Counted from the stretch's first letter, positions 20,621 to 58,607 are shown. The stretch is DNA of 64,000 nucleotides from Abyssibacter profundi (GCF_003151135.1 NZ_QEQK01000006.1:161805-225804), one strand, 5' to 3'. Translations and numbers: made by a program. Notes: generated by a model from the sequence alone, not told the origin.

Positions 20621-22165
20621 ATGCCAAATACACAACAGTTGCTGATCATAGGCGTCGACGCCGGAAGTCCCGAGCTATTCAGCCAATGGATGGAGTCCGG
20701 CGATCTGCCGAATCTGGCTGCACTGCGAGACCGCAGCTGCTGGGGGGAGGTACAAAGTCCCTATGCGCTGGAGGCGGGGGCCGTCTGGCCGGTGTTCCAC
20801 AGCGGACGCCTGCCCGGGCGACAGCCGCAGTACGATGGCCGCCGGTACTTCGGCCGCCACGATTATCGGGATCATTGGTACGAACTCGATGAGACGCCAC
20901 CTCCGGTGTGGCGCCAGCTGTCGGACCAGGGCGTCGACTGTTTGCTGATCGATCCGCCTTATCTGCGACTGGACCCCGAGATGCGGGGCACCATGGTGGT
21001 TGACTGGGGCGGTCACGTGCCGGCGGACGGGCGTCAGTTCAGGTTGTCCACGGTGCCCGAAGCCGTGGCTGATGACATTCTTGCGGCCATTGGTCCAGAC
21101 CCCACGGGGGGCGTGTCCTGTGACCGGCAGGCGCCCGAGTCGATCGAGGATCTCCGGGCCTTTATCGAGCGGTACCAGACACGGTTGCAGAAGAAAGCCG
21201 AGCTGACCGTGCATCTGATGCGCACACGCCAGTGGGACCTGGCCATGTCGGTGTTTACCGACCTGCACTGTACCGGCCATCACGTTTGGCACATCAACGA
21301 CCGTAGCCATCCCCAGTACGACCCCAGGGTGGAGGCCGCCCTGGGCGAGCCGTTGCGCGACTGCTATCGGCTATTCGATCGGGCGCTGGGGCAGATTCTG
21401 GCCGAGGTGGGTGAACAGACCAATGTCATGCTGTTCGGCAGTCACGGCATGGGCCCTCAGTACTCGGGGACCGGCCTGCTAGATCGCGTGCTGCTCACCC
21501 TCGATCAGGGGCGGCCCGCTGCGCGCAGCCGATCCTGGAAGGCCAGTGCCAGAGCGGTCTGGCAGACCTTGCCGGTTGAGTGGCGTGCTCGCATGAAGCA
21601 TTTGCGCAAGCCTTTCGAAGGCAAATTGCATCCACCTCGGTTCCTCGGCAATCATGCTGAACGGAGATTCTTTGAGGTCTACGCCAATAACGCTAGCGGT
21701 GGCGTCCGGATCAACCTCAAAGGGCGTGAGGCGAAAGGTCGTGTGGAACCAGCCGACTACCCGGCGCTCACCGAGCGGCTGCAGCGACAGCTTCGCGCAC
21801 TGATCAACGTGGATTCCGGCGAGCCGCTGGTCGACGATGTCATCGTGACGCGTGACCACTACGACGGCGAGTATCTCGAAGCGTTGCCGGATCTACTGGT
21901 GGTCTGGAACCGCAATCAGCCGATTCGTGCCGTGCATTCTGAGGCCACCGGCACCATCGTGCAGGAGACGGTCGATGGCCGCACGGGAGATCACACGCCC
22001 AAAGGAATTTACCTACTCAGCGGTCCGGCGGTCTCGGGCCACGGTCAGGGCGATGTGATCAGGGCGCAGGATTTCGCACCGACGCTGGCAGCGTTCTTCG
22101 GTTGTCAGTTGTCCGCGACAGACGGTGCTGCCCAACCCCTGCTGAGGCGTGTCGGTCCATCGTGA
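20621..22165 (+). CDS. Alkaline-phosphatase superfamily (type I phosphodiesterase/nucleotide pyrophosphatase-like) protein
   Basis: 514 aa, no signal peptide. Metal-site elements of the superfamily are visible: LLIIGVDAGSPELF (first Asp), DLHCTGHHVWH (Asp/His pair), LFGSHGMGP and GDHTPKGIYLLSGP. The region where the nucleophile usually lies reads ALEAGAVWPVFHSGRLPG, so the nucleophile identity is unclear. Enzymes of this family hydrolyse phosphate or sulfate esters. Position next to a glycosyltransferase and a sulfotransferase suggests a role in making or editing a sulfated or phosphorylated glycan; substrate unknown. Overlaps the next gene by 4 bases. Confidence 0.8.
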   Translation: MPNTQQLLIIGVDAGSPELFSQWMESGDLPNLAALRDRSCWGEVQSPYALEAGAVWPVFHSGRLPGRQPQYDGRRYFGRHDYRDHWYELDETPPPVWRQLSDQGVDCLLIDPPYLRLDPEMRGTMVVDWGGHVPADGRQFRLSTVPEAVADDILAAIGPDPTGGVSCDRQAPESIEDLRAFIERYQTRLQKKAELTVHLMRTRQWDLAMSVFTDLHCTGHHVWHINDRSHPQYDPRVEAALGEPLRDCYRLFDRALGQILAEVGEQTNVMLFGSHGMGPQYSGTGLLDRVLLTLDQGRPAARSRSWKASARAVWQTLPVEWRARMKHLRKPFEGKLHPPRFLGNHAERRFFEVYANNASGGVRINLKGREAKGRVEPADYPALTERLQRQLRALINVDSGEPLVDDVIVTRDHYDGEYLEALPDLLVVWNRNQPIRAVHSEATGTIVQETVDGRTGDHTPKGIYLLSGPAVSGHGQGDVIRAQDFAPTLAAFFGCQLSATDGAAQPLLRRVGPS

Positions 22166-23214
22166 GCGGGTCCAAGACATATCCGGCGGTGCCGACGGTG
22201 TCGGTCATCATGGCAGCGCGCAACGCCGATCAAACGGTCGCTGAAGCACTGGAGTCGGTGCGCAGCCAGACGCTCGCCGATTGGGAGCTGATTGTCGTCG
22301 ATGACCATTCAACGGATGGAACGGCGAGGGTAGTCCGACACGCTGCCGAGTCCGATCCGAGGATCCAGTTGCTCAACATGGCCGTGCAAAGCGGGCCGGG
22401 GGCGGCGCGCAATGTGGCTCTGGCGGCGGCACAAGGGCGCTGGGTGGCCGTGCTCGATGCGGATGATCGCTATCACCCCGAGCGACTCGAACGCATGGTC
22501 AGTGCCGCCGAAGCGCTGGATGCGGACGCCTATGCAGACAATCTGTATCTCGATGGCGGCCCCCACCAGGAGATGGCGGGCCCGTTGGCATTCGACGCGG
22601 ACATGCTTGAACGGCTCGGCAAGCTGGATCTCGACCGGTTTCTTGAAAGTGATCGCCCCCGCAATGGGGTGTCCAGTTTTGGGTATATCAAACCGATCAT
22701 GCGTCGCGAATTCCTTCATCGACACGGCTTTCGCTACAACCAATCATTGCTGGTCTGTGAGGATTCCAATCTGTATGCCCGTATCCTGATGTCTGGAACG
22801 CCGATTCACTGCGGTGGATGGGCGGGGTATTACTACCGCCGCTCCGAGGGGTCGATTACGCGTGACGCGGACAACCACTTACGCAACGCAGCTTTCGCGT
22901 CTGCGAGCAACTACGATCTGCTCCGTCGCGCCCTGCAGACAGGGCAGCAGGATCTTGCGGCCCGGCTGCGACGCCATGGCCGCGAGATCGATGCGGTATA
23001 CCAGATCGATCTGCTAAAGCGCGCCTTGAGGCGAAACAGCGCACTTGAGGTGTTTCGCTGGATGCCGGACGGGCTGCGTCATGCACCGTGGATCACGAAG
23101 TTCGTGATCGCCCGACTGACCGCAGGACGGCCGGACAATCCGGTCGGTCTTCCGAGCATGCATCGCAAAGGGCCAACGCTGCAGCAGAATCGGCGAGCGT
23201 CTGATCGGGACTGA
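22162..23214 (+). CDS. Glycosyltransferase family 2
   Basis: 350 aa GT-A enzyme. VSVIMAARNADQTVAEALESV then WELIVVDDHSTDGT give the nucleotide-sugar site and VAVLDADDRYHPERL the DXD metal site. The C-terminal half contains EDSNLYARILMSG, common in GT2 EPS enzymes. GTG 22162 overlaps the preceding stop (GTGA); the frame extends to 22102, but those residues precede the fold and lie inside the upstream gene. Probably coupled in function with the upstream phosphatase-family enzyme. Confidence 0.88.
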   Translation: MSGSKTYPAVPTVSVIMAARNADQTVAEALESVRSQTLADWELIVVDDHSTDGTARVVRHAAESDPRIQLLNMAVQSGPGAARNVALAAAQGRWVAVLDADDRYHPERLERMVSAAEALDADAYADNLYLDGGPHQEMAGPLAFDADMLERLGKLDLDRFLESDRPRNGVSSFGYIKPIMRREFLHRHGFRYNQSLLVCEDSNLYARILMSGTPIHCGGWAGYYYRRSEGSITRDADNHLRNAAFASASNYDLLRRALQTGQQDLAARLRRHGREIDAVYQIDLLKRALRRNSALEVFRWMPDGLRHAPWITKFVIARLTAGRPDNPVGLPSMHRKGPTLQQNRRASDRD

Positions 23215-23370
23215 ACGCGTGGGCGGCAGCGTGCTTGCTGGAACGTGATATATTCATTCAACTTCATCGAAGTGCAGTTTCAGAAGCAATCTTCTATATT
23301 TAAAATAGATCAAACAATCTGCACAGGTAGTGTGCGGGAGTGAGGATAATTTGTTTAAGCCGGCTGCGCT
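23215..23370 (+). promoter_or_regulatory. AT-rich spacer upstream of sulfotransferase
   Basis: This 156-bp stretch (23215-23370) is clearly more AT-rich than its surroundings, with TATATTTAAAATAG at 23295-23308 as the obvious -10-like tract. A short inverted repeat GAAG-CAAT-CTTC sits immediately before it. No -35 hexamer is convincing. Confidence 0.4.
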
Positions 23371-24279
23371 ATGACCGATCTTAGTCTGCCTAATTTCCTG
23401 GTCATCGGTGCGCAGAAAGCCGGTACCACATGGCTGTCAGCCATGTTGACCCAGCACCCGGACATCGGCGTCGCGCTGAACAAAGAAGTTCATTTCTTTG
23501 ATCATCCTGAGAACTTCCGCCGTGGAATCGAGTGGTATTCCAAACAATTTCCCAGAGTTGAAAACCGCCTCGTCGGCGAGTTCACGCCGAACTATCTTTG
23601 GACTTTTGGATGCAGTCGGGAAGTTGGGCATGGTGGGCTGCCTATTCCGCATAATATTGTGGAGCATTTGGGTGCCCAGAACCTGAAGCTTATTTGTCTA
23701 TTGCGTAATCCGGTTGATCGTGCGGTGTCGGCGTACTACCACCATATTCGCCAAGGTCGAGTGTCGGTAGGGACCTCGATTCTGGATGTCGCGGATCGGT
23801 GGGGCATCGAGTCGATGGGCCGCTACGACCAACATCTGGAGGCCTGGCTCAGTCAGGTCCATCGCGATCAGATTCTGGTCCTGATCTACGAAGATTCACT
23901 TCGCGATGACCGAAAACGGCAAACACTTGATCAGGTGTGTGACCACCTGGGCGTACGCCGCTATGAAGACTGGAAAGGGCTGTACGCGCGACAGAATGCA
24001 GCGGGCAGCCACTTTCGCCTTCATTTTTCCAAGGGGCCGTTCAAGTTTTTGGGGAAAGAGCGCATTGCGCGGCGCCTGCCGCGCTTGATAACCGAGCATC
24101 CGCATTGGCGGGTACAGGTTCCGGATGCCTCGCGCTATGAGTTGTCCAGGCGCTTCCAGCCCCATGTCGAGCGTCTGGAAACCATGCTCGGCATGGACTT
24201 GTCCGTCTGGAAAAATCACGACGGTCGCTTGTCGATCACGACGCCCGTCCCGAGACCCAGCGTCGAAGAACCTATCTAA
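23371..24279 (+). CDS. PAPS-dependent sulfotransferase
   Basis: 302 aa. The 5'-phosphosulfate loop is FLVIGAQKAGTTWLSAML (residues about 9-26), the catalytic-site segment is NKEVHFFD and the 3'-phosphate motif is LLRNPVDRAVSAYYHHIRQG. This layout is that of the heparan-sulfate-type (NDST/HST) sulfotransferases that act on glycans. No signal peptide or membrane anchor, so sulfation would occur in the cytoplasm on nucleotide- or lipid-linked sugar. Base composition is visibly lower in GC than the neighbours and its upstream spacer is AT-rich, which suggests later acquisition. Convergent with the acyltransferase gene. Confidence 0.92.
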   Translation: MTDLSLPNFLVIGAQKAGTTWLSAMLTQHPDIGVALNKEVHFFDHPENFRRGIEWYSKQFPRVENRLVGEFTPNYLWTFGCSREVGHGGLPIPHNIVEHLGAQNLKLICLLRNPVDRAVSAYYHHIRQGRVSVGTSILDVADRWGIESMGRYDQHLEAWLSQVHRDQILVLIYEDSLRDDRKRQTLDQVCDHLGVRRYEDWKGLYARQNAAGSHFRLHFSKGPFKFLGKERIARRLPRLITEHPHWRVQVPDASRYELSRRFQPHVERLETMLGMDLSVWKNHDGRLSITTPVPRPSVEEPI

Positions 24280-45922: not shown

Positions 45923-47314
45923 ATGTCTGGATCGTATGGCTTGGCAGCCACTGGGGCGTTCGTGTCAGGGAAGACAAAAGGGTGGGCTGTTCTCGGCAGG
46001 TGGGTTGCCATCATTGGCGGCCTCGTCGGTGCCACGGCCGCTGCTGCGGATGATCTCGCCCGGGCTTACGCCCTGGCGTTGGATCAGGACCCGACCTGGG
46101 TTGAAGCGCAGGCCCGCTATGCAGAAGTGCTGGCCGATCAGGAGTTGGCGCGGGCCGGCTACCATCCGGTTCTCACGCTCGCAGGCCGGGCCACGGCCAA
46201 CCACCGTGAAGTCGATGGTGAATTTTTCGGTCTCGACAACCTGAACCGTGATGACGATTTCGAGGCCTTGAGCTATGCCATCGCCCTGCGTCAGCCGCTG
46301 CTGCGGCTGGATCGCTGGCGGGCCAGAGATGTAGCGGCACTGCGATCAGGCGCAGCGCTGGCGCGTCTGCATGCAGCAGAAAGTGACTTGATGTTGCGCG
46401 TCGCCGAGGCCTACTTCGCGGCGCTGGATGCCGAGCAGGATCTCGAGGTTTTTCGCGCCGAGTTACAGGCCATCGCGGAGCGCGCCGACCAGATACGTGA
46501 GCAGACCCGTCTGGAACTGGCCACCCGCGCCGGTCAGTCGGAGGCCGATGCCCAGCGGGAACTGGCCCAGGCCAGGCTGCTGCGAGCCCGGCAGGCTTTG
46601 GACACATCTCGGGCCGAGCTGGCGTTGCTCACCGGCCAGCTGGCGACGGGGCTGGCCCGTGTCCCACTGTCACGAGCACTGCCCCCGGTCGAGCCGGCCA
46701 ACCAGCAGGACTGGGTGGAGCAGGCCCGCAGCAGCAATCCGATGCTGGTTGCGGCCCGGCTGGAATCCGAAGTGGCAGGCCGCCAGGTGGATGTGCAGCG
46801 GGCGGCACGATGGCCGACGGTGGATTTGATTGCCCAGCGTGAGTACCTCGACAACTCCGGCGGTGTCACCGGCGCGCGGGAGGATTCCGAAGACCTGATT
46901 GGGCTGGAGCTGCGTCTGTCGCTGTTTGATGGCGGAGAAGCTCGGGCGCGGACCTCGGCCGCGATGGCGCGCTACCAACAGGCCCTGGCCCGTCAGGCAC
47001 GGGCGCTGCGCCAGGCCGAGTTCGATGCCCTGCGAGCCTACTCGGCGCTGGAACTGGGGCAGGCTCAGATCGAGGCCCTGCAGGCGGCCCGGGGCGCAAC
47101 CTACGACGCGGTCGAGGCCACCGAGGGTGGAGTCTTTGCCGGCACCCGAACAGCCGTGGACCTGGTGCAGTCGCTGCGCGAACGCTTTGATGCCGAGCGC
47201 GCGCTGTCACGGGCCATTCATGCCTACCTGCTCAACAGCCTCCGATTACAGGCCGCGGCCGGCACCTTGGGGGTGGACGATTTGATGGCGGTTAACCGGC
47301 TGCTTAGCGACTAG
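45923..47314 (+). CDS. TolC-family outer-membrane channel protein
   Basis: 463 aa. Export signal at the N terminus (about 20-41, LGRWVAIIGGLVGATAAAAD). The mature part has the two-fold OEP repeat: LARAYALALDQDPTWVEAQARY, long alpha-helical hairpins rich in A/R/E/L, YAIALRQPLLR and IGLELRLSLFDGG as the two strand entries, and VEATEGGVFAGTRTAVDLVQ near the end. It forms a trimeric exit duct with a periplasmic adaptor. It starts one base before the adaptor-fusion gene and so belongs to the secretion unit at 45923-52151, rather than to the RND pump at 58-63 kb, which has its own TolC. Confidence 0.92.
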   Translation: MSGSYGLAATGAFVSGKTKGWAVLGRWVAIIGGLVGATAAAADDLARAYALALDQDPTWVEAQARYAEVLADQELARAGYHPVLTLAGRATANHREVDGEFFGLDNLNRDDDFEALSYAIALRQPLLRLDRWRARDVAALRSGAALARLHAAESDLMLRVAEAYFAALDAEQDLEVFRAELQAIAERADQIREQTRLELATRAGQSEADAQRELAQARLLRARQALDTSRAELALLTGQLATGLARVPLSRALPPVEPANQQDWVEQARSSNPMLVAARLESEVAGRQVDVQRAARWPTVDLIAQREYLDNSGGVTGAREDSEDLIGLELRLSLFDGGEARARTSAAMARYQQALARQARALRQAEFDALRAYSALELGQAQIEALQAARGATYDAVEATEGGVFAGTRTAVDLVQSLRERFDAERALSRAIHAYLLNSLRLQAAAGTLGVDDLMAVNRLLSD

Positions 47315-47315
47315 C

Positions 47316-49661
47316 ATGGCGGCGACCCATCCACAGTTGGTGTATCGCAGTCAGTCGCGTATCGCGACGCGCTACGCCGAGATCATCCTGCTGACCAGCT
47401 CCGCCGATGGGCGCGTCTTCCGCTTCGATGAAATGGAGTACCGGCTGGTCAGTCTGTTCGATGGCACCCGGAGCCTGGCGGCTGCGGTCGAGGCCGCTCA
47501 CGAGCAGGGTCTGACGGTCGACCGCCCAAGAGCCCAGCGTCTGCTCGCCGAACTGGACCGGGCCGGCCTGCTGGAGTCAGGTGATGGGCACTGGGGGGCG
47601 GCGGCCAACGACGCCGGACCGGCCGCGCCGGATGAATGGAATGCCGAACGGGCCCACCGCGAGGCCGAGCCTCTGGCGCGTTCGCGGCTGGCGCGACAAC
47701 ACGCACTGCGGGAGGCGCGTACACCGGATATTCACTGGCATCTGTCCACGCGCTCGCTGTTGTGGGCGGGCCGTCTGCTGAATTGGCCCATGCACGCCCG
47801 GTGGCGCATGGGCTTGCTGGCCGGGGTGCTCGGGTTGCTGGCCTTGGGGCTCATGCGCAACCGCATCGATGTCTGGCTGGATCTGCAGCGTCTGGTCGGG
47901 CCGCTGGCGCTGTTGCAGGTCGCGGTGTTGGGGTTTTTCTCCGTGAATTTATTGGGGCAGCTGGCGCGGGCGGCCGAGTACCAGCGGCGGATGGGGCGTC
48001 TGCCGGCGTTTGGCATCACCTTTATGTTCCGGCTGCTGCCGCGCTTCTACGCCGATGTGTCACCGGTGCTGAGCAACCAGGATCAGCGTTATGACCATCC
48101 GGACCGGCTGGCCATTCTCGCGTCATCGCTGGTGGCGATGGCGTCGCTGTTCGTACTGGCCAGCCTGGGCTGGCTAGTCAGCCGGGGTGGGGCATCGGAT
48201 CTGCCGCTGCTCTTCGCCGGTGTGGGCGTGCTGTCGGCCTGGGTTTGCTTGCTACGTCTCAACCCGATGTCGCGGCATGAGGGTTATCAGTTGCTCGCCA
48301 CCCAGCTGGATACGCCGGATCTACGCGACATCGCCATCGCGGCCATCTTCGGCCGTGGTCGGATCTGGCGGCGGCTTAAGCCCAAAGGCGTGTCGACGCT
48401 GGCGATTCGGGTTTACGCCCTGGCGGTGGTGCTGTGGCTGGCCATCGTGGCCTGGGTGTTGTTTCACCTGATCGGGGTCTGGCTGGCGCGGGAGTGGGCC
48501 GGGCTGGGTGTTGTTCTATTCCTCGTTGCCTGCGGGGTTGTCATGTGGAATCCAATGAAACGATCGAAAGCGCGCAATCAGCTTGCACAGGAAATGGAAG
48601 CCCGGAATCCGGAACTGGCGGCCCGTCGAAAGCGAACGCGTCGGGGGACGTGGATGCGCTGGGGGATCGGCGGCGCCGTGCTGCTCGTGCTGGCACTGAT
48701 TCCCTATACATACGAGCCCACCGGAGATTTCACGGTGCTGCCCAATGATCGCTCCGATGTGCGCGCTCTCATCGCCGGCGAAGTGCGCGAAGTGCTGGTG
48801 GCCGAGGGCGACCAGGTGGAGCAGGGGCAGCTGTTGGCCCGGCTGTCCGCCGATGAAGAGCGGGCGAGGGTCGCCACCAGCGAGGCAAGGCTGGCCCGGC
48901 TGAACGCGGAGCGAGCATTGGCGGAGCGGGGCGCCGAACCCGAGGAGATCGCCCTGGCCGAACAGCGGGTGGCGACGGCAGAGCGACGTTTCCAATCCAG
49001 TCAACGCGAGGCCGACCGCCTGGCTGCGGCTTACCAGCGCGGTGCGGCCACCGGTCAGGCCGCCAGCCAGGCCGAAGCCCAGGCCGCCCTGGACCGCGAG
49101 CGCCTGGCTGAGGCCACGAATGCGCTGGCCGTGGTTCGCGCCGGCATCACCTCCGAGGAACTGGCGGCCCTGGAGGCGGCCATCGCGGCCGAGCAGGCAC
49201 AGCTGGATTATGCCCGCCAGCAACTGGCCTACACCGAGCTGCGGGCGCCCCGTGCGGGTCGGGTGGTGTCGGAGGACCTGCGATTCGCACGCGGCACTTA
49301 TCTGGCGCGTGGCGATCGCCTGCTGAGTATCGAGGAGACCGGCCAGGTATTGGCCGAGATCCGCATTCCGGAGAACGACATCGGTGATGTGACGCTAGGT
49401 GCCGAGGCTTCGGCCAAGGCCTGGGCCTATCCGGGGGTGAGCTTCACCGGCACGGTGGCCGGCATCGCACCCAATGCCGAGACCGGCGATTACGGCCGGG
49501 TGGTGCGTGTGCAAATGGCCATCGAAAATGCCGACGGCCGCCTGCGTCCGGAGATGACAGGCCACGCTCGGGTGCAGGGTCAGACCCAGCCCGCGGGTCT
49601 GGCGTTCACCCGGGGGCTCGCCCGTTTCTTCATGGTTGAGGTCTGGAGCTGGATTCCCTAG
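47316..49661 (+). CDS. PqqD-like / degenerate M50 peptidase-like membrane / HlyD-type adaptor fusion
   Basis: 781 aa three-part protein. Residues about 8-90 resemble a PqqD/RRE-like winged-helix domain (VFRFDEMEYRLVSLFDGTRS, AQRLLAELDRAGLLES). Residues about 140-415 form a multi-helix membrane region matching M50 (site-2 protease) fusions: GFFSVNLLGQLARAAEYQRR, LLPRFYADVSPVLS, CLLRLNPMSRHEGYQLL. The zinc motif HExxH is NLLGQ (211-215) and the later NPxxxxDGY is NPMSRHEGY, so proteolysis is unlikely. After a helix at about 450-465, a HlyD adaptor follows: barrel/lipoyl halves around a coiled coil (about 510-645) and IPENDIGDVTLG. It would join an inner-membrane step to the upstream TolC. Confidence 0.8.
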   Translation: MAATHPQLVYRSQSRIATRYAEIILLTSSADGRVFRFDEMEYRLVSLFDGTRSLAAAVEAAHEQGLTVDRPRAQRLLAELDRAGLLESGDGHWGAAANDAGPAAPDEWNAERAHREAEPLARSRLARQHALREARTPDIHWHLSTRSLLWAGRLLNWPMHARWRMGLLAGVLGLLALGLMRNRIDVWLDLQRLVGPLALLQVAVLGFFSVNLLGQLARAAEYQRRMGRLPAFGITFMFRLLPRFYADVSPVLSNQDQRYDHPDRLAILASSLVAMASLFVLASLGWLVSRGGASDLPLLFAGVGVLSAWVCLLRLNPMSRHEGYQLLATQLDTPDLRDIAIAAIFGRGRIWRRLKPKGVSTLAIRVYALAVVLWLAIVAWVLFHLIGVWLAREWAGLGVVLFLVACGVVMWNPMKRSKARNQLAQEMEARNPELAARRKRTRRGTWMRWGIGGAVLLVLALIPYTYEPTGDFTVLPNDRSDVRALIAGEVREVLVAEGDQVEQGQLLARLSADEERARVATSEARLARLNAERALAERGAEPEEIALAEQRVATAERRFQSSQREADRLAAAYQRGAATGQAASQAEAQAALDRERLAEATNALAVVRAGITSEELAALEAAIAAEQAQLDYARQQLAYTELRAPRAGRVVSEDLRFARGTYLARGDRLLSIEETGQVLAEIRIPENDIGDVTLGAEASAKAWAYPGVSFTGTVAGIAPNAETGDYGRVVRVQMAIENADGRLRPEMTGHARVQGQTQPAGLAFTRGLARFFMVEVWSWIP

Positions 49662-49665
49662 GGCC

Positions 49666-51234
49666 ATGGGCGCAAATCAAATGCTGACGCCACCACTGGA
49701 TCCCGACCTCATTCTGCCCACGCCGGTTTGGCCGCCAGGCGCCGAGCCCTTGTCGTTGGACCAGCCTGAGCCCCATGCGCTGGCTGGAGAGCATTTCAAA
49801 CTGGTCAGCGAGAATGGCTTCGGCGACGGCTACAACAACTACCCACACAGCATGGCCTGGTTCAAGGGCAAGCTGTACGTCGGCACCACACGGGCGACGT
49901 TCCAGATGCTGGCGCATAACGACCCGCTGCCACCGCTGGACCCCTGGCCGGTCACGCCGCCGGAGGATATCTACGATCTGGACCGGCGCGCCGAAATCTG
50001 GTGCTACGACCCTGCAGCGGATGACGGCTGGACGCTGGCCTATCGCGCGCCCTGGGTTCGCGCCGATGACGGTCGCGACGTGCCGCGCTTTATCGGGTAT
50101 CGCGGCATGGCGGTATTCCAGGGCGATAGCGACGATGAACCCGTGCTGTATATCGCCACCTGGGCCCCGCGCAAGGCACCGCGTCCAACGGTGATGCGCA
50201 CCGCCGACGGCGTGCATTTCGAAGAGCTGCCTGGCCCGAACTGGGGCGACAATGTGCGCTCGTTTCGCACCATGCAAATCTTCAACGGCAAGCTTTATAC
50301 ATCCCCGACCGGCTCCACCACGGGCGATCGGCAGTCGCAGGAATGCGTGGGTGGCCGACCGGCCATCTTCGAAAGTTCAGACCCGCGCACCGGGCAGTGG
50401 CGTGCGGTCTCCAGCCAGGGCTTTGGTGACCCGGCCAATCTCACGGTGTTCGAGATGGCGGCATTCAACAACCATCTGTATGCCGGCACGGTGAACGCCC
50501 GCAATGGCTTCGAGATCTGGAAAACCCGCGCCGAGGGTGATCCGCCCTACGACTGGCGGCGCGTGCTGTCGCACGGGGCGGGGCGCGGCCCGCTGAACGA
50601 AGTGGCTGTCAGCCTCTGTGAGTTCAAGGGCGCGCTTTATGTCGGCTCGGGCATCGTTAACGGGGGCTATCACCGCAAGCTCAACATCGGGCCGGCCGCA
50701 GCCGAGCTGATCCGGCTGCATCCGGATGACTCCTGGGAGTTGGTGATGGGGGAGTCGCGGATTACTCCCCAGGGTGCCCGCTATCCCATCTCGGGCTACC
50801 GACCCGGATTCAACAAATTCTTCAACGGCTACGTCTGGCGCATGGGCGTGCATGCCGGCCGGTTGTATGTGGGCACATTCAGCTGGGCCCAGTTGCTGCC
50901 GTATTGCCCAATCCATCAATGGAGCGAGGTCGCCCAGAAGAAAATTGCCCGCATGGGTGTGGACTGGTTCGTCCGCAATATGGGGGGCTGCGATGTGTGG
51001 TCGTCCGAGGACGGTGTCCACTGGGACTGCATGACCCGCAACGGCTTTGATAACGAGTGCAACTGGGGTGTACGTCAGATTCTGTCCACGCCTTATGGCG
51101 TGTTCATCGCCACGGCCAATGTCCTGGCGCCGGACCGTGCCATCCAACGCAACGGCCAGTGGGAGTATGTCCACAATCCCCGCGGAGGCTGCGAGGTGTG
51201 GCGTGGTGCCGATCCGGGCGAGGCGGGGCCGTGA
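49666..51234 (+). CDS. Predicted cytoplasmic beta-propeller protein, unknown function
   Basis: 522 aa, no signal peptide or membrane segment. Some seven blade-like repeats share the pattern hydrophobic-x-x-F-x-G-x-L-Y-V/A-G-T: MAWFKGKLYVGTTR, MAVFQGDSDDEPVLYIATW, MQIFNGKLYTSPTGS, MAAFNNHLYAGTVN, LCEFKGALYVGSGI, MGVHAGRLYVGTFS, ILSTPYGVFIATAN. Rich in Trp and Tyr. The blades are interspersed with GxEIW/GxDVW strands (FEIWKT, CDVWSS, CEVWRG). I do not recognise the family's function. ATG 49666 lies four bases after the adaptor stop; the end overlaps the sulfotransferase start by 4 bases, so it is a fixed part of the unit. Confidence 0.75.
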   Translation: MGANQMLTPPLDPDLILPTPVWPPGAEPLSLDQPEPHALAGEHFKLVSENGFGDGYNNYPHSMAWFKGKLYVGTTRATFQMLAHNDPLPPLDPWPVTPPEDIYDLDRRAEIWCYDPAADDGWTLAYRAPWVRADDGRDVPRFIGYRGMAVFQGDSDDEPVLYIATWAPRKAPRPTVMRTADGVHFEELPGPNWGDNVRSFRTMQIFNGKLYTSPTGSTTGDRQSQECVGGRPAIFESSDPRTGQWRAVSSQGFGDPANLTVFEMAAFNNHLYAGTVNARNGFEIWKTRAEGDPPYDWRRVLSHGAGRGPLNEVAVSLCEFKGALYVGSGIVNGGYHRKLNIGPAAAELIRLHPDDSWELVMGESRITPQGARYPISGYRPGFNKFFNGYVWRMGVHAGRLYVGTFSWAQLLPYCPIHQWSEVAQKKIARMGVDWFVRNMGGCDVWSSEDGVHWDCMTRNGFDNECNWGVRQILSTPYGVFIATANVLAPDRAIQRNGQWEYVHNPRGGCEVWRGADPGEAGP

Positions 51235-52151
51235 GCACGGCGTTGGATTTTCCACCCCCGCTGGTGGTGTTGTCGCCGCCCCGGTCGTTTTCGTCGCTGA
51301 CCTCGGCCATGCTCGGTGCCCATCCGCAGTCGGCTGGGCTGCCCGAGCTACAACTGTTCATGACCGACCACATGGACCAGTTGCTCAAGTTCTTCGCCTT
51401 GTCGCCCGGGAATTTGCAGGACGGACTGCTGCGCTCCGTGGCCCAGCTGTACTTTGGCGAGCAAACCGATGCCAGTGTGGATCAAGCCAAGGGCTGGCTG
51501 GCTGAACGTCGCCACCTATCTACAGCCGCCATGTTCCAGTTGCTGGCCCGCAAGGTCGCACCGCAGGTGCTGGTGGAAAAAAGCATTGCCACCGTTTGGC
51601 GGCCAGGCTTCCTGCGCCGCTTGAAGCAGGCAGCTCCCCACGCGCGGTATTTGCATTTGCTACGGCACCCGCGCGGCCAGTGCAGCTCGCTGGTGAACAT
51701 GATCGGTCACCGCGAGGACAGCGTGGCAGCCGATCTCAAGGATCACTCGACCGATCCACCGACCTTCGACCCGCAAATCGCTTGGCTGCAGATTCATCAG
51801 AACATCCTGCGGGCGTTATCCGATGTGCCGGCCGAGCAGATCATGCGTGTGCGCGGCGAGGACGTGCTGGCCGATCCCGAGCGCCATCTGACGGAGATCG
51901 TCCGCTGGGCGGGCATGCGAGACGATGCCGAGGCCCTGGACGCCATGCTCCACCCCGAGCGGTCCATCTTCGCTTGCATCGGCCCGCCGTCAGCCCCCTA
52001 CGGCTCAGACCCCAAGTTTCTGGAAAACCCAGTCTTCCGGCCGCAGCAGTCCAAACCCCAGTCGCTGGAGGGCCCACTGCCGTGGCGGGACGACCTGACG
52101 GGCTTCGTGCCAGAGGTGCTGGAGCAGGCGAGGGCGTTCGGGTATCGGTGA
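51231..52151 (+). CDS. Sulfotransferase-family protein
   Basis: 306 aa. The N-terminal loop PLVVLSPPRSFSSLTSAMLGAHPQ is the 5'-phosphosulfate loop with Phe-Ser-Ser in place of the usual Gly-Thr-Thr/Ser; RYLHLLRHPRGQCSSLVNMI is the 3'-phosphate motif, and EKSIATVWRPGFLRRL matches the segment between them. The C-terminal part has RVRGEDVLADPERHLTEIVRWAG, the common sulfotransferase end. No signal peptide. Substrate unknown; it is co-encoded with an export apparatus, so a peptide, protein or small-molecule cargo is plausible. GTG start overlaps the previous stop. Confidence 0.84.
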   Translation: MSTALDFPPPLVVLSPPRSFSSLTSAMLGAHPQSAGLPELQLFMTDHMDQLLKFFALSPGNLQDGLLRSVAQLYFGEQTDASVDQAKGWLAERRHLSTAAMFQLLARKVAPQVLVEKSIATVWRPGFLRRLKQAAPHARYLHLLRHPRGQCSSLVNMIGHREDSVAADLKDHSTDPPTFDPQIAWLQIHQNILRALSDVPAEQIMRVRGEDVLADPERHLTEIVRWAGMRDDAEALDAMLHPERSIFACIGPPSAPYGSDPKFLENPVFRPQQSKPQSLEGPLPWRDDLTGFVPEVLEQARAFGYR

Positions 52152-52195: not shown

Positions 52196-53596
52196 TCATT
52201 CCATGCGGTCGAAATCGTTGAAGTTGATGCTGACGCGGTGACCGCTGGAGGCCCAGTTGGGGAAGTTGATCGTCTGTGAGAACTCGCTGCGCCCACGGGG
52301 AATGAGTCGCATCGTGATCGTGCCGTCGGGCGGCTCGGCCGCCGGCATGTAGACGTCTACGCCCGTCTGGAAGGCTTGATCCGGGAAATACGGCAACGGC
52401 TCGAGCGTGGTTTGTTGCGGGGTCGCGGCGTCATCATGGATGTGAATACCGATGGTGTCGTTGCCAACTTCAGGCGTGATGGCATTGACCACGGGCTGGT
52501 CGCCGACAGATGGGCTGCGCGTGCTGATCTCGACGATGTCATTACCGGCGGTGGCATGGTCTCCAAACCATTCGCGCATGCGCGAAATGACGACCGCTGC
52601 GTGGGCGTCGCCAAGATTGGTGTTGCTGCGGGTGTCGCTGTCATTCGGGCCGGACAGCAAACGCACATGCTCGGTGTCGCGAACAAACCGCGGCATGTAG
52701 AAGTGATGTGGCACCGAATCGCTGGCGGTTAGCAGGAACTCATAGTGCGTGTCGGTGCGCAGCGTCACCGGCCCCCAGAACCCGTCTGCGTCGGGAACCA
52801 TGGTTGCCGTCGGCGTGTCGGCCATACGATGACCGGTGGCCGAATCGATTGGCCAGATGGCCAGCTCGGCGTCGGGGCGGCCTGTGTTCTGCGGGAATGT
52901 CACCGTGCGGCCTGAGACCGAAACCTCGAGCCCCTGCAGTTCGATGTCTACGATGGCTGGCCGCTCGCCGTAAAAGAATGCGTACTGGGCTTCGAAGGAT
53001 TCGGGCGAGGTCGCGACCTCAACATGGGCCTGATTCTCGATATAGGTGTTGTTCTGCCCCATGCCGACGTTGCTTTGGCCATCGAAAATGCCGATACAGG
53101 GCACCAGGCCCGGGCAAACCGGACTGACTGCGCCATCAATGCTGACAAAACCGGCGACCAGATTCGCCGGGGCGGGCACGGGCAGCGGCGTGGTGGCGAA
53201 ACCCGATGAGAGATACTCGGTTGACACGATCGTGCCCAGGGAATGGCCGATCAGGTACACCTGATCGACGTCATGTTGCGCGGTGACATCCTGGATGAAC
53301 TCATAGAGCGGTAGCAACAGCTGCCCGCCCGCTGCCATTGCGATGCCCTCGACACCCGCATCATATTCAAAGGTGTGGATCTTCTCCGGTGGCACACCGT
53401 TGGCGACGTAACGCATGGATTGGGCTTGAATCTGTGCTGCCGAACCGGCCGCCCCATGCACAAAAACAATGGGCAGGCTGTCAGATAGCGCACCCGCCTC
53501 CACCCCCGGTGCCGTGGCATCACTCGAGCCGCCGCCACAGCCGGAAAGGAACAAGCTGGGGGCCAGCAGCAACAAGAGTCGTCGTATGAATCGCAT
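52196..53596 (-). CDS. Secreted lipase/esterase lipoprotein (alpha/beta hydrolase)
   Basis: 466 aa. Lipoprotein signal RRLLLLLAPSLFLSGC (Cys20). Alpha/beta-hydrolase domain with PIVFVHGAAGSAAQ (oxyanion region) and nucleophile elbow YLIGHSLGT (Ser119); a late DAHAAVVISRMREWFGD could carry the catalytic His. The C-terminal about 220 residues are beta-rich (RTVTFPQNTGRPDAELAIW, FYMPRFVRDTEHVRLL) and resemble the accessory domain of large extracellular lipases. Good GAGGAG site before ATG 53596. Convergent with the sulfotransferase gene. Confidence 0.88.
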   Translation of the reverse strand: MRFIRRLLLLLAPSLFLSGCGGGSSDATAPGVEAGALSDSLPIVFVHGAAGSAAQIQAQSMRYVANGVPPEKIHTFEYDAGVEGIAMAAGGQLLLPLYEFIQDVTAQHDVDQVYLIGHSLGTIVSTEYLSSGFATTPLPVPAPANLVAGFVSIDGAVSPVCPGLVPCIGIFDGQSNVGMGQNNTYIENQAHVEVATSPESFEAQYAFFYGERPAIVDIELQGLEVSVSGRTVTFPQNTGRPDAELAIWPIDSATGHRMADTPTATMVPDADGFWGPVTLRTDTHYEFLLTASDSVPHHFYMPRFVRDTEHVRLLSGPNDSDTRSNTNLGDAHAAVVISRMREWFGDHATAGNDIVEISTRSPSVGDQPVVNAITPEVGNDTIGIHIHDDAATPQQTTLEPLPYFPDQAFQTGVDVYMPAAEPPDGTITMRLIPRGRSEFSQTINFPNWASSGHRVSINFNDFDRME

Positions 53597-56836: not shown

Positions 56837-57321
56837 CCGGTGAGCGGTTTCTCCCAGAACAGCGCATGCCCCGCGCTGGGGTCGAGCGCGTAACCCTTGA
56901 ATCCCCAGCGCGTATAGGCGGCCTGGGCGACGTGGTTGTGGCTTAGCACTTCCAGCGTGAGCTTACAGGCGCCGCGCGCTCGCGCTTCCTGCTCAATCGC
57001 GGCCAGCAGGGCCTGGCTGATGCCGCGGCCTCGATGGTCTGGCCGTACGGCAAGGTCATGGATATTCACGACCGGGCGGGCGGCGAACGTGGAAAAGCCC
57101 TCGAAGCAGTTGCTAAAGCCAACGGCCTCACCATCGACCCAGGCCAGCAGCGTGAACGCGTCTTGTCGTTTGGCCAGCTCCGGAACCACACGGTCCAGCA
57201 CGTCGGCTGCCAACGTCTTGCCGCCACCCATGGGGTCTGCGGCATAGGCCGCCAGCAGATCGCGAATGGCCTGGGCATGGATGGGGTCGCGGTAGTCCGC
57301 TTGATTCACGATTAGGTTCAT
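56833..57321 (-). CDS. GNAT family N-acetyltransferase
   Basis: 162 aa. Acetyl-CoA binding motif AVRPDHRGRGISQALL and the following EARARGACKLTLEVLSHNHVAQAAYTRWGF are typical of GNAT enzymes. Acceptor unknown. ATG overlaps the stop of the efflux TolC gene by 4 bases, so it is the last gene of the RND efflux operon. Confidence 0.92.
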   Translation of the reverse strand: MNLIVNQADYRDPIHAQAIRDLLAAYAADPMGGGKTLAADVLDRVVPELAKRQDAFTLLAWVDGEAVGFSNCFEGFSTFAARPVVNIHDLAVRPDHRGRGISQALLAAIEQEARARGACKLTLEVLSHNHVAQAAYTRWGFKGYALDPSAGHALFWEKPLTG

Positions 57322-58607
57322 AAGCTGAGATCTTCGAACAGCGATGCGCCCGTGGCCAGTCGATAGGCGATGAGGGCAGTGAGCAAACGGTACCCGGCGG
57401 TAGCAGCCTGTGCGCGCTGCCGGGCGTAGGCGGCTTCGGCGTCGAGGACTTCATCGACGGTCGCCCGACCGGCCTCGTAACGGGCGACGCGGACCTGGCG
57501 ACTGGCCTCGCTGGCGGTGACACCCGATTGCGCCAGTTCCGCCAGGCTGATGGCCGTGCGGATCGACGCCTGGGCCTCGGCCACCTCAACCCGGATCGCG
57601 GCCTGCAGTTGTCCGATGTCTGCGTCCAGGGCGCTGCGTTGTGACTCGGCGGCCTGGCGCTGTGCCTGGATCCGGCCGCTGGTAAAGGGCTGCCACTGTA
57701 GGTTGAGGCCGACGCGAACGTCCTCCTCCGGGGTGAACGGGTTGCCCTGGCTGCGAATGACGCTGACCGCCGCGCCCAGCGTCGGCCAGGCACTGGCGCG
57801 CTCGGCATTGGCCAGCAGGTGTTGGCCCTCGCGTTGCAGGCGCAGGGCCTGCAGGTCGCGGCGCTGTGCGAAGACCTTGGCCCAATCAGGCGTCGGGATG
57901 GGCCCTGCGGCGTGGTCGGGCGGGCGGGCATCCTGCGGCTGGATCGGGCGGCCGGCTAGCCGTATCAGGTCCTGCTGCAGCACGGTTTGATTGGCTTCGA
58001 TTTCAACCAGTTGCTGGCGAGCTTCCGTGACGGCGACATCGATATCGAGGACATCGGCCTGCAGCGCTCGGCCTGCGGCGGACTGGTTGCGGACCCGCGC
58101 CGCGCGCAGTTGCAGGCTGTCCTGCAGCGCCAGGATGGCTTGCCGCTGGGCCTCCAGTGCTAGCCAGTCCAGGTAGCGGCGGGCCGCCGCGGCAGCTTGC
58201 ACCCGTTGTTGGCGCAGGACCTGCTGGTGCTGTGCCTGGGCCACACGCTGGGACGCCGGTGCGCCATAGGCCTGATTCGACAGGTCCAGCAGGGGCTGGC
58301 GCAGGCTGAGCGTGGCCTCGTAAACGTCGCGGTCGCCCAGTGTGAACGCGCCCGCCGGCGTGTCGATCGTGGAGAGTTGGTCGCGGTGCGCGGCCTGGGC
58401 CTGTAAGTCCAGGCTGGGGGCCCAGCTGCCTCGCCAGGCGGCCCTGGCCGTGGCGTCTGCGGCCTGGGCACGCCAGCGTGCAGCCTGGACCCTCGTGTTT
58501 TCGGCCGCCGCCTGCATGGTGGCGGTCAGGCTCGTCGGCGCGGCGACGGCGAGGGGGCTGGATGCGCCTGCCAGCAGGCTGGCAAGCAGGAGAGCGGAAC
58601 TACGCAT
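57318..58607 (-). CDS. TolC-family outer-membrane efflux protein
   Basis: 429 aa. Signal peptide SSALLLASLLAGASSPLAVA, then the OEP repeat: VYEATLSLRQPLLDLSN and VRVGLNLQWQPFTSGRIQAQ as barrel entries, long helical segments, and ARYEAGRATVDEVLDAEAAY close to the end. It partners with the RND pump encoded upstream; start overlaps that gene by 8 bases. Confidence 0.93.
   Translation of the reverse strand: MRSSALLLASLLAGASSPLAVAAPTSLTATMQAAAENTRVQAARWRAQAADATARAAWRGSWAPSLDLQAQAAHRDQLSTIDTPAGAFTLGDRDVYEATLSLRQPLLDLSNQAYGAPASQRVAQAQHQQVLRQQRVQAAAAARRYLDWLALEAQRQAILALQDSLQLRAARVRNQSAAGRALQADVLDIDVAVTEARQQLVEIEANQTVLQQDLIRLAGRPIQPQDARPPDHAAGPIPTPDWAKVFAQRRDLQALRLQREGQHLLANAERASAWPTLGAAVSVIRSQGNPFTPEEDVRVGLNLQWQPFTSGRIQAQRQAAESQRSALDADIGQLQAAIRVEVAEAQASIRTAISLAELAQSGVTASEASRQVRVARYEAGRATVDEVLDAEAAYARQRAQAATAGYRLLTALIAYRLATGASLFEDLSL

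Follow-up and report, generated by a model that had tools for sequence, protein, structure and literature searches.

In the Rax system of Xanthomonas (RaxST, RaxA, RaxB and RaxC), a sulfotransferase stands beside an HlyD-type adaptor and a TolC-type channel. Sulfotransferases are also found in CurM and in the cyanobacterial olefin synthase, the ACP-ST-TE modules of which use sulfation to activate the chain, with a terminal alkene being formed. For the Pfa-like "secondary lipid" FAS/PKS clusters, twenty Types (A–T) have been distinguished, 14 of them with uncharacterised products (Shulse & Allen 2011, PMC3098273). Neither a sulfotransferase nor HlyD nor a beta-propeller turned up when the text of that paper was searched by word, and the same holds for a nitronate/nitropropane domain and HlyD in the sponge swf PKS paper; literature searches (PqqD with HlyD and M50; sulfotransferase with PUFA synthase; Nevskia/Algiphilus PKS) returned no description of the cluster reported here, an absence that is no proof of novelty.

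The window, i.e. the whole stretch of 64,000 nucleotides of Abyssibacter profundi DNA that was analysed, contains four consecutive genes on the + strand. Gene 1 (45923–47314, 463 aa) encodes an outer-membrane channel of the TolC/OEP family (PF02321, 1.3e-36; TIGR01844, 3.2e-66). It is followed by gene 2 (47316–49661, 781 aa), an inner-membrane adaptor fusion composed of a PqqD-like winged helix-turn-helix, an apparently inactive M50-like membrane domain and an HlyD/membrane-fusion domain (HlyD_D23, 7e-20; RND_mfp, 6.8e-29), by gene 3 (49666–51234, 522 aa), a predicted cytoplasmic beta-propeller with relatives at 46–90% identity, and by gene 4 (51231–52151, 306 aa), which starts with GTG and encodes a PAPS sulfotransferase of the Sulfotransfer_3 family (PF13469, 8.3e-24, and motif survey). 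The junctions measure 1 base (genes 1 and 2) and 4 bases (genes 2 and 3), and genes 3 and 4 overlap by the 4 bases GTGA. These reading frames and spacings, given in a preliminary description of the locus, were found again on the + strand, and its TolC, HlyD and sulfotransferase assignments agree with the Pfam/NCBIfam profile matches; with both TolC and HlyD present, the two-membrane export character that it proposed also stands.

That the genes form one unit, as had been suggested, is borne out by relatives within the taxonomic order, where the same arrangement is kept in about 39 of 40 loci. Gene order and counts in these relatives were taken from tblastn, as the script-made gene calls there sometimes took the wrong strand. 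The M50-HlyD gene lies directly 5' of the propeller gene in 39 of the 40 loci and TolC holds its position in 38, while a sulfotransferase homologue lies directly 3' of the propeller gene in 39, the remaining locus ending at a contig end. With about 40 other loci keeping it, the order TolC, fusion, propeller, sulfotransferase is far beyond chance; the propeller relatives named by their records include Abyssibacter, Algiphilus, Hydrocarboniphaga, Oceanococcus and Ideonella azotifigens. The contrary outcome envisaged in the preliminary description, i.e. genes that do not co-occur elsewhere, or a sulfotransferase and propeller that travel with EPS genes, was not encountered: the genes co-occur, and they do so with polyketide genes, whereas an EPS association is not supported. 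Directly after the cassette, on the – strand, lies a lipase gene with Lipase_C and AF_1763-like C-terminal domains (52196–53596), which was rejected as a member of the unit, having no counterpart beside the cassette in two Abyssibacter-like relatives. A second OEP/TolC-family protein (PF02321, 5e-34) is encoded on the – strand at 57318–58607, not adjoining the cassette.

Among 85 genomes of the order, the propeller was found in 51 and an orthologue of a giant polyketide synthase, PKS1, in 52, with both in 51 (Fisher 8e-23) and a single genome, G382, having PKS1 without the propeller. Orthologues were here taken as roughly ≥46% identical over the full query, a limit that leaves out paralogues at 43–45% and was set once the table had been inspected. 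Since each genome counts as an independent observation in these tests, significance is overstated; kinship is considered only in the repeat within one family, where 45 genomes have both, 1 has the PKS only and 12 have neither (p 1.5e-11); joint absences of propeller and PKS are scattered inside several genera. In a class-wide sample of 369 genomes, the propeller occurs in 5 and a full-length PKS in 8, all 5 propeller genomes being shared (p 1e-9), and in a set of 11 propeller genomes the PKS was present in every one. The propeller was found only together with this one PUFA-synthase-like PKS and is a marker of its cluster. Of the 51 propeller–PKS1 pairs, 34 share a contig and 31 lie within 30 kb of each other; in the genus of the window the two are on different contigs, and in the single-contig genome G419 (L141) both are kept 1.58 Mb apart.

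In A. profundi, the synthase pair lies at G000:C19, at least ~37 kb from the cassette as judged by the contig ends. PKS1 (3100 aa) has the architecture NMO-KS-AT-5xACP-KR-DH, with KS motif DAACASS, AT motif GHSYG and five GxDSI acyl carrier domains, and PKS2 (1683 aa) that of KS-AT-DH-PPTase. Pfam domains and motifs thus place the pair among PUFA-synthase-like systems, with KS-AT, tandem ACP and KR accompanied by DH, an NMO-type ER and a PPTase. A few genes away, an ACP-sulfotransferase fusion of 458 aa (motif PPRSGST) is encoded. The neighbourhoods of relatives hold the two giant PKS proteins and varying sets of accessory genes, i.e. ACP, an alkaline-phosphatase-superfamily protein, alpha/beta hydrolase, hexapeptide acyltransferase, SDR, CoA-transferase or sulfatase; for the alkaline-phosphatase-superfamily gene, which recurs in several of them, the A. 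profundi genome has no close homologue. In two distant genomes (G808 and G714), sulfotransferase, PKS1, PKS2, ACP, alkaline-phosphatase-superfamily gene, hydrolase, propeller and M50-HlyD stand in one locus, and clusters holding parts of the cassette together with the PKS occur in G311, Hydrocarboniphaga and G025. At the PKS paralogue loci of two propeller-less genomes (G136 and G013), cassette genes were not found.

Within the adaptor fusion, the PqqD-like segment (47403–47573, +) scores 14.5 bits against the PF05402 cut-off of 23.4 bits (E 0.158), yet it stands in the right position and covers nearly the full length of the profile (8–67 of 67). It is possibly a divergent PqqD homologue, so that the domain named in the preliminary description has its expected place but not the score. 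The M50-like membrane region (approximately 47870–48560, +), reported there as well, is present as a weak match to NF041824, the daptide intramembrane metalloprotease (E 4.6e-5, best stretch residues 27–415), and its NPxxxxGY motif, kept in the window protein, is mostly retained in alignments of 9 and 47 proteins. Its zinc motif, however, is gone: at the aligned site HExxH is absent in all 47 proteins, the window protein having LGQLAR there, and because of this absence the domain is, by motif, not a metalloprotease. The C-terminal part (48738–49658, +) matches the HlyD profile as a barrel-sandwich with a long coiled-coil adaptor, Foldseek relating it to MacA, EmrA and MexA. The predicted model of the fusion is poor (pTM 0.40), and for that reason no fold is claimed for its membrane part.

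Gene 3 matches no Pfam or NCBIfam family. Its AF2 model (pTM 0.80, mean pLDDT 71.5) aligns with 3bws at a VIA-align Z of 26.9 (302 residues, rmsd 2.8) and with virginiamycin B lyase at 26.3, and more generally with propellers at Z ~26 over ~290–300 residues. As modelled, the protein is a beta-propeller by fold, as had been proposed, and probably a seven-bladed one, many of the propellers with which it aligns being seven-bladed. Since the top VIA-align matches are tied, no enzyme class or specific family is assigned to it. The cytoplasmic location suggested earlier agrees with the lack of any hydrophobic or transmembrane-like segment. Second, divergent propellers, 31–34% identical, are encoded beside intact-motif sulfotransferases and adjoin PKS genes at two loci, L024 (G088:C105) and L170 (G714:C39), where the propeller–sulfotransferase pair seems to have been duplicated. 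In G311, the propeller frame runs into a long C-terminal extension (L021:7788-10367, an 859-aa ORF in the script's call), possibly a fusion.

The sulfotransferase of the window retains both PAPS-binding motifs, the 5'-PSB loop with its Arg (PPRSFSS) and the 3'-PB with its Arg and Ser (RHPRGQCSS), as expected of a PAPS-dependent enzyme, and its place in the unit as a sulfotransferase is upheld by these motifs together with the family match. The 5'-PSB Arg and 3'-PB Ser are likewise kept in close relatives, in distant genomes (G311, G326, G088, G403 and G808) and in one of the two sulfotransferases of G714. Elsewhere in the order, the 5'-PSB Arg has been lost from about 40 further homologues, and the 3'-PB Ser, too, is missing from nearly all of them. 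The motifs point to a loss of sulfotransferase activity in these proteins, which are presumably retained for another reason. The proposal that the cargo is sulfated is thus compatible with the intact motifs of this genome but at odds with their loss in most relatives: sulfation is likely in some members only and, judged by motif, cannot be the core function everywhere, because ~40 relatives lost the PAPS motifs yet keep the rest of the cluster.

On these grounds, we propose, with a probability of roughly 70%, that the four genes act as one module in a "secondary lipid" pathway, tailoring the product of the PUFA-synthase-like iterative type I PKS and exporting it across both membranes; in A. 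profundi this product is probably sulfated. PKS1, with its N-terminal ER/NMO domain, and PKS2 would build a long acyl chain, to a hydroxyl of which gene 4 and the ACP-sulfotransferase fusion would transfer sulfate from PAPS. The alpha/beta-hydrolase would free the product, the propeller may bind or tailor the intermediate in the cytoplasm, and, at the inner membrane, the M50-like/HlyD fusion would take over the product for delivery to TolC. It has to be noted that the separate contigs in the window's own genus and the many relatives that keep the cluster with a motif-less sulfotransferase argue against this model, as does the lack, in the clusters read, of an ABC, RND or MFS pump conserved beside the HlyD fusion, although such a pump may be encoded elsewhere. 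A more far-reaching version, which we regard as doubtful, holds that the fusion is a new class of inner-membrane device that loads polyketide lipids without such a pump, in which the former protease fold would be a lipid entry chamber handing the cargo to TolC, and the propeller and (pseudo)sulfotransferase would be cytoplasmic cargo adaptors.

The genetic association with the PKS also bears on what else the cargo might be. If it were a RiPP-like peptide, sulfated and exported in a Rax-like manner by the four proteins, the sub-threshold PqqD-like segment and the placement of the sulfotransferase against the exporter, as in RaxST/RaxA/RaxC, would fit. This is nevertheless highly improbable, as no conserved precursor, ABC protease/ATPase or radical SAM enzyme was seen, the M50 site is degenerate and the association with the PKS is constant. 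The one short ORF that recurs in the neighbourhoods of relatives encodes an acyl carrier protein of ~95 aa, not a leader peptide, with the proviso that ORFs were called from 50–60 aa upwards, so that a very short precursor could escape; among the annotated cluster proteins, there is no RaxB-like ABC transporter/protease. The preliminary description had itself listed the want of an ABC ATPase, radical SAM enzyme and short precursor nearby as its difference from Rax, and none of the three was seen here either; a peptide cargo is not supported.

A sulfated exopolysaccharide or other unrelated compound, with the PKS linkage reflecting a shared niche and not a shared pathway, would accord with the unlinked cassette and PKS of this genus and with a further sulfation-related locus in the window (20621–24279). 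There, a type I phosphodiesterase-family protein of the alkaline-phosphatase superfamily (20621–22165) is followed, two genes on, by a Sulfotransfer_1 protein (23371–24279, 1.3e-22). Since cassette and PKS lie no more than 30 kb apart in 31 of the 51 genomes, are linked in distant lineages as well and are jointly absent within genera, such a cargo is improbable. Still unlikely, though to be taken more seriously, is a pathway of the olefin type, in which the chain, while still bound to its carrier, would be sulfated at a beta-hydroxyl and so activated for decarboxylative elimination by a thioesterase-like hydrolase to give a terminal alkene, the sulfate being a leaving group that is not in the product. 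The ACP-sulfotransferase fusion of the genome, near an alpha/beta-hydrolase and the PKS, is reminiscent of ACP-ST-TE; however, sulfotransferase and hydrolase are unfused, an alkene needs no two-membrane exporter, and most relatives keep the PKS, usually with hydrolase and ACP, but a sulfotransferase homologue without PAPS motifs.

Under the preferred reading of an exported polyketide lipid, an orphan export cassette becomes linked with a class of PUFA-synthase-like pathways that is widespread and, it appears, has not been described before. An exported lipid, sulfated in places, is predicted for bacteria like Algiphilus and Hydrocarboniphaga. These are known for growth on hydrocarbons, for which a secreted amphiphile would matter. 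Offering a natural series of sulfotransferases, some intact and some decayed, together with a decayed protease fold that is still kept, the system is suited to the study of how secondary lipids pass across two membranes.

Compared with known systems, the cassette shares the HlyD barrel, the coiled-coil adaptor and the OEP channel with MacA, EmrA and MexA and their TolC partners, from which it differs in having no conserved adjoining pump gene and in that the adaptor is preceded, within the same protein, by a PqqD-like segment and an apparently inactive M50-like membrane domain. As in Rax, a sulfotransferase is encoded beside an HlyD-type adaptor and a TolC-type channel; unlike Rax, the cassette shows neither an ABC transporter/protease nor a precursor peptide and has a PKS context, a propeller and the M50-like fusion. 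With CurM and the olefin synthase, it has in common a sulfotransferase that would act with an acyl carrier and a hydrolase in a PKS pathway, the genome having its own ACP-sulfotransferase fusion, whereas the cassette sulfotransferase is discrete, is accompanied by an exporter and, to judge from its motifs, is probably without activity in most relatives. The Pfa/PUFA synthases of Types A–T show the same iterative KS-AT, tandem ACP and KR with NMO-type ER, DH and PPTase, and the same scattered distribution (PMC3098273), while the synthase associated with this cassette is divided between two giant proteins and has its ER fused N-terminally and its PPTase C-terminally.
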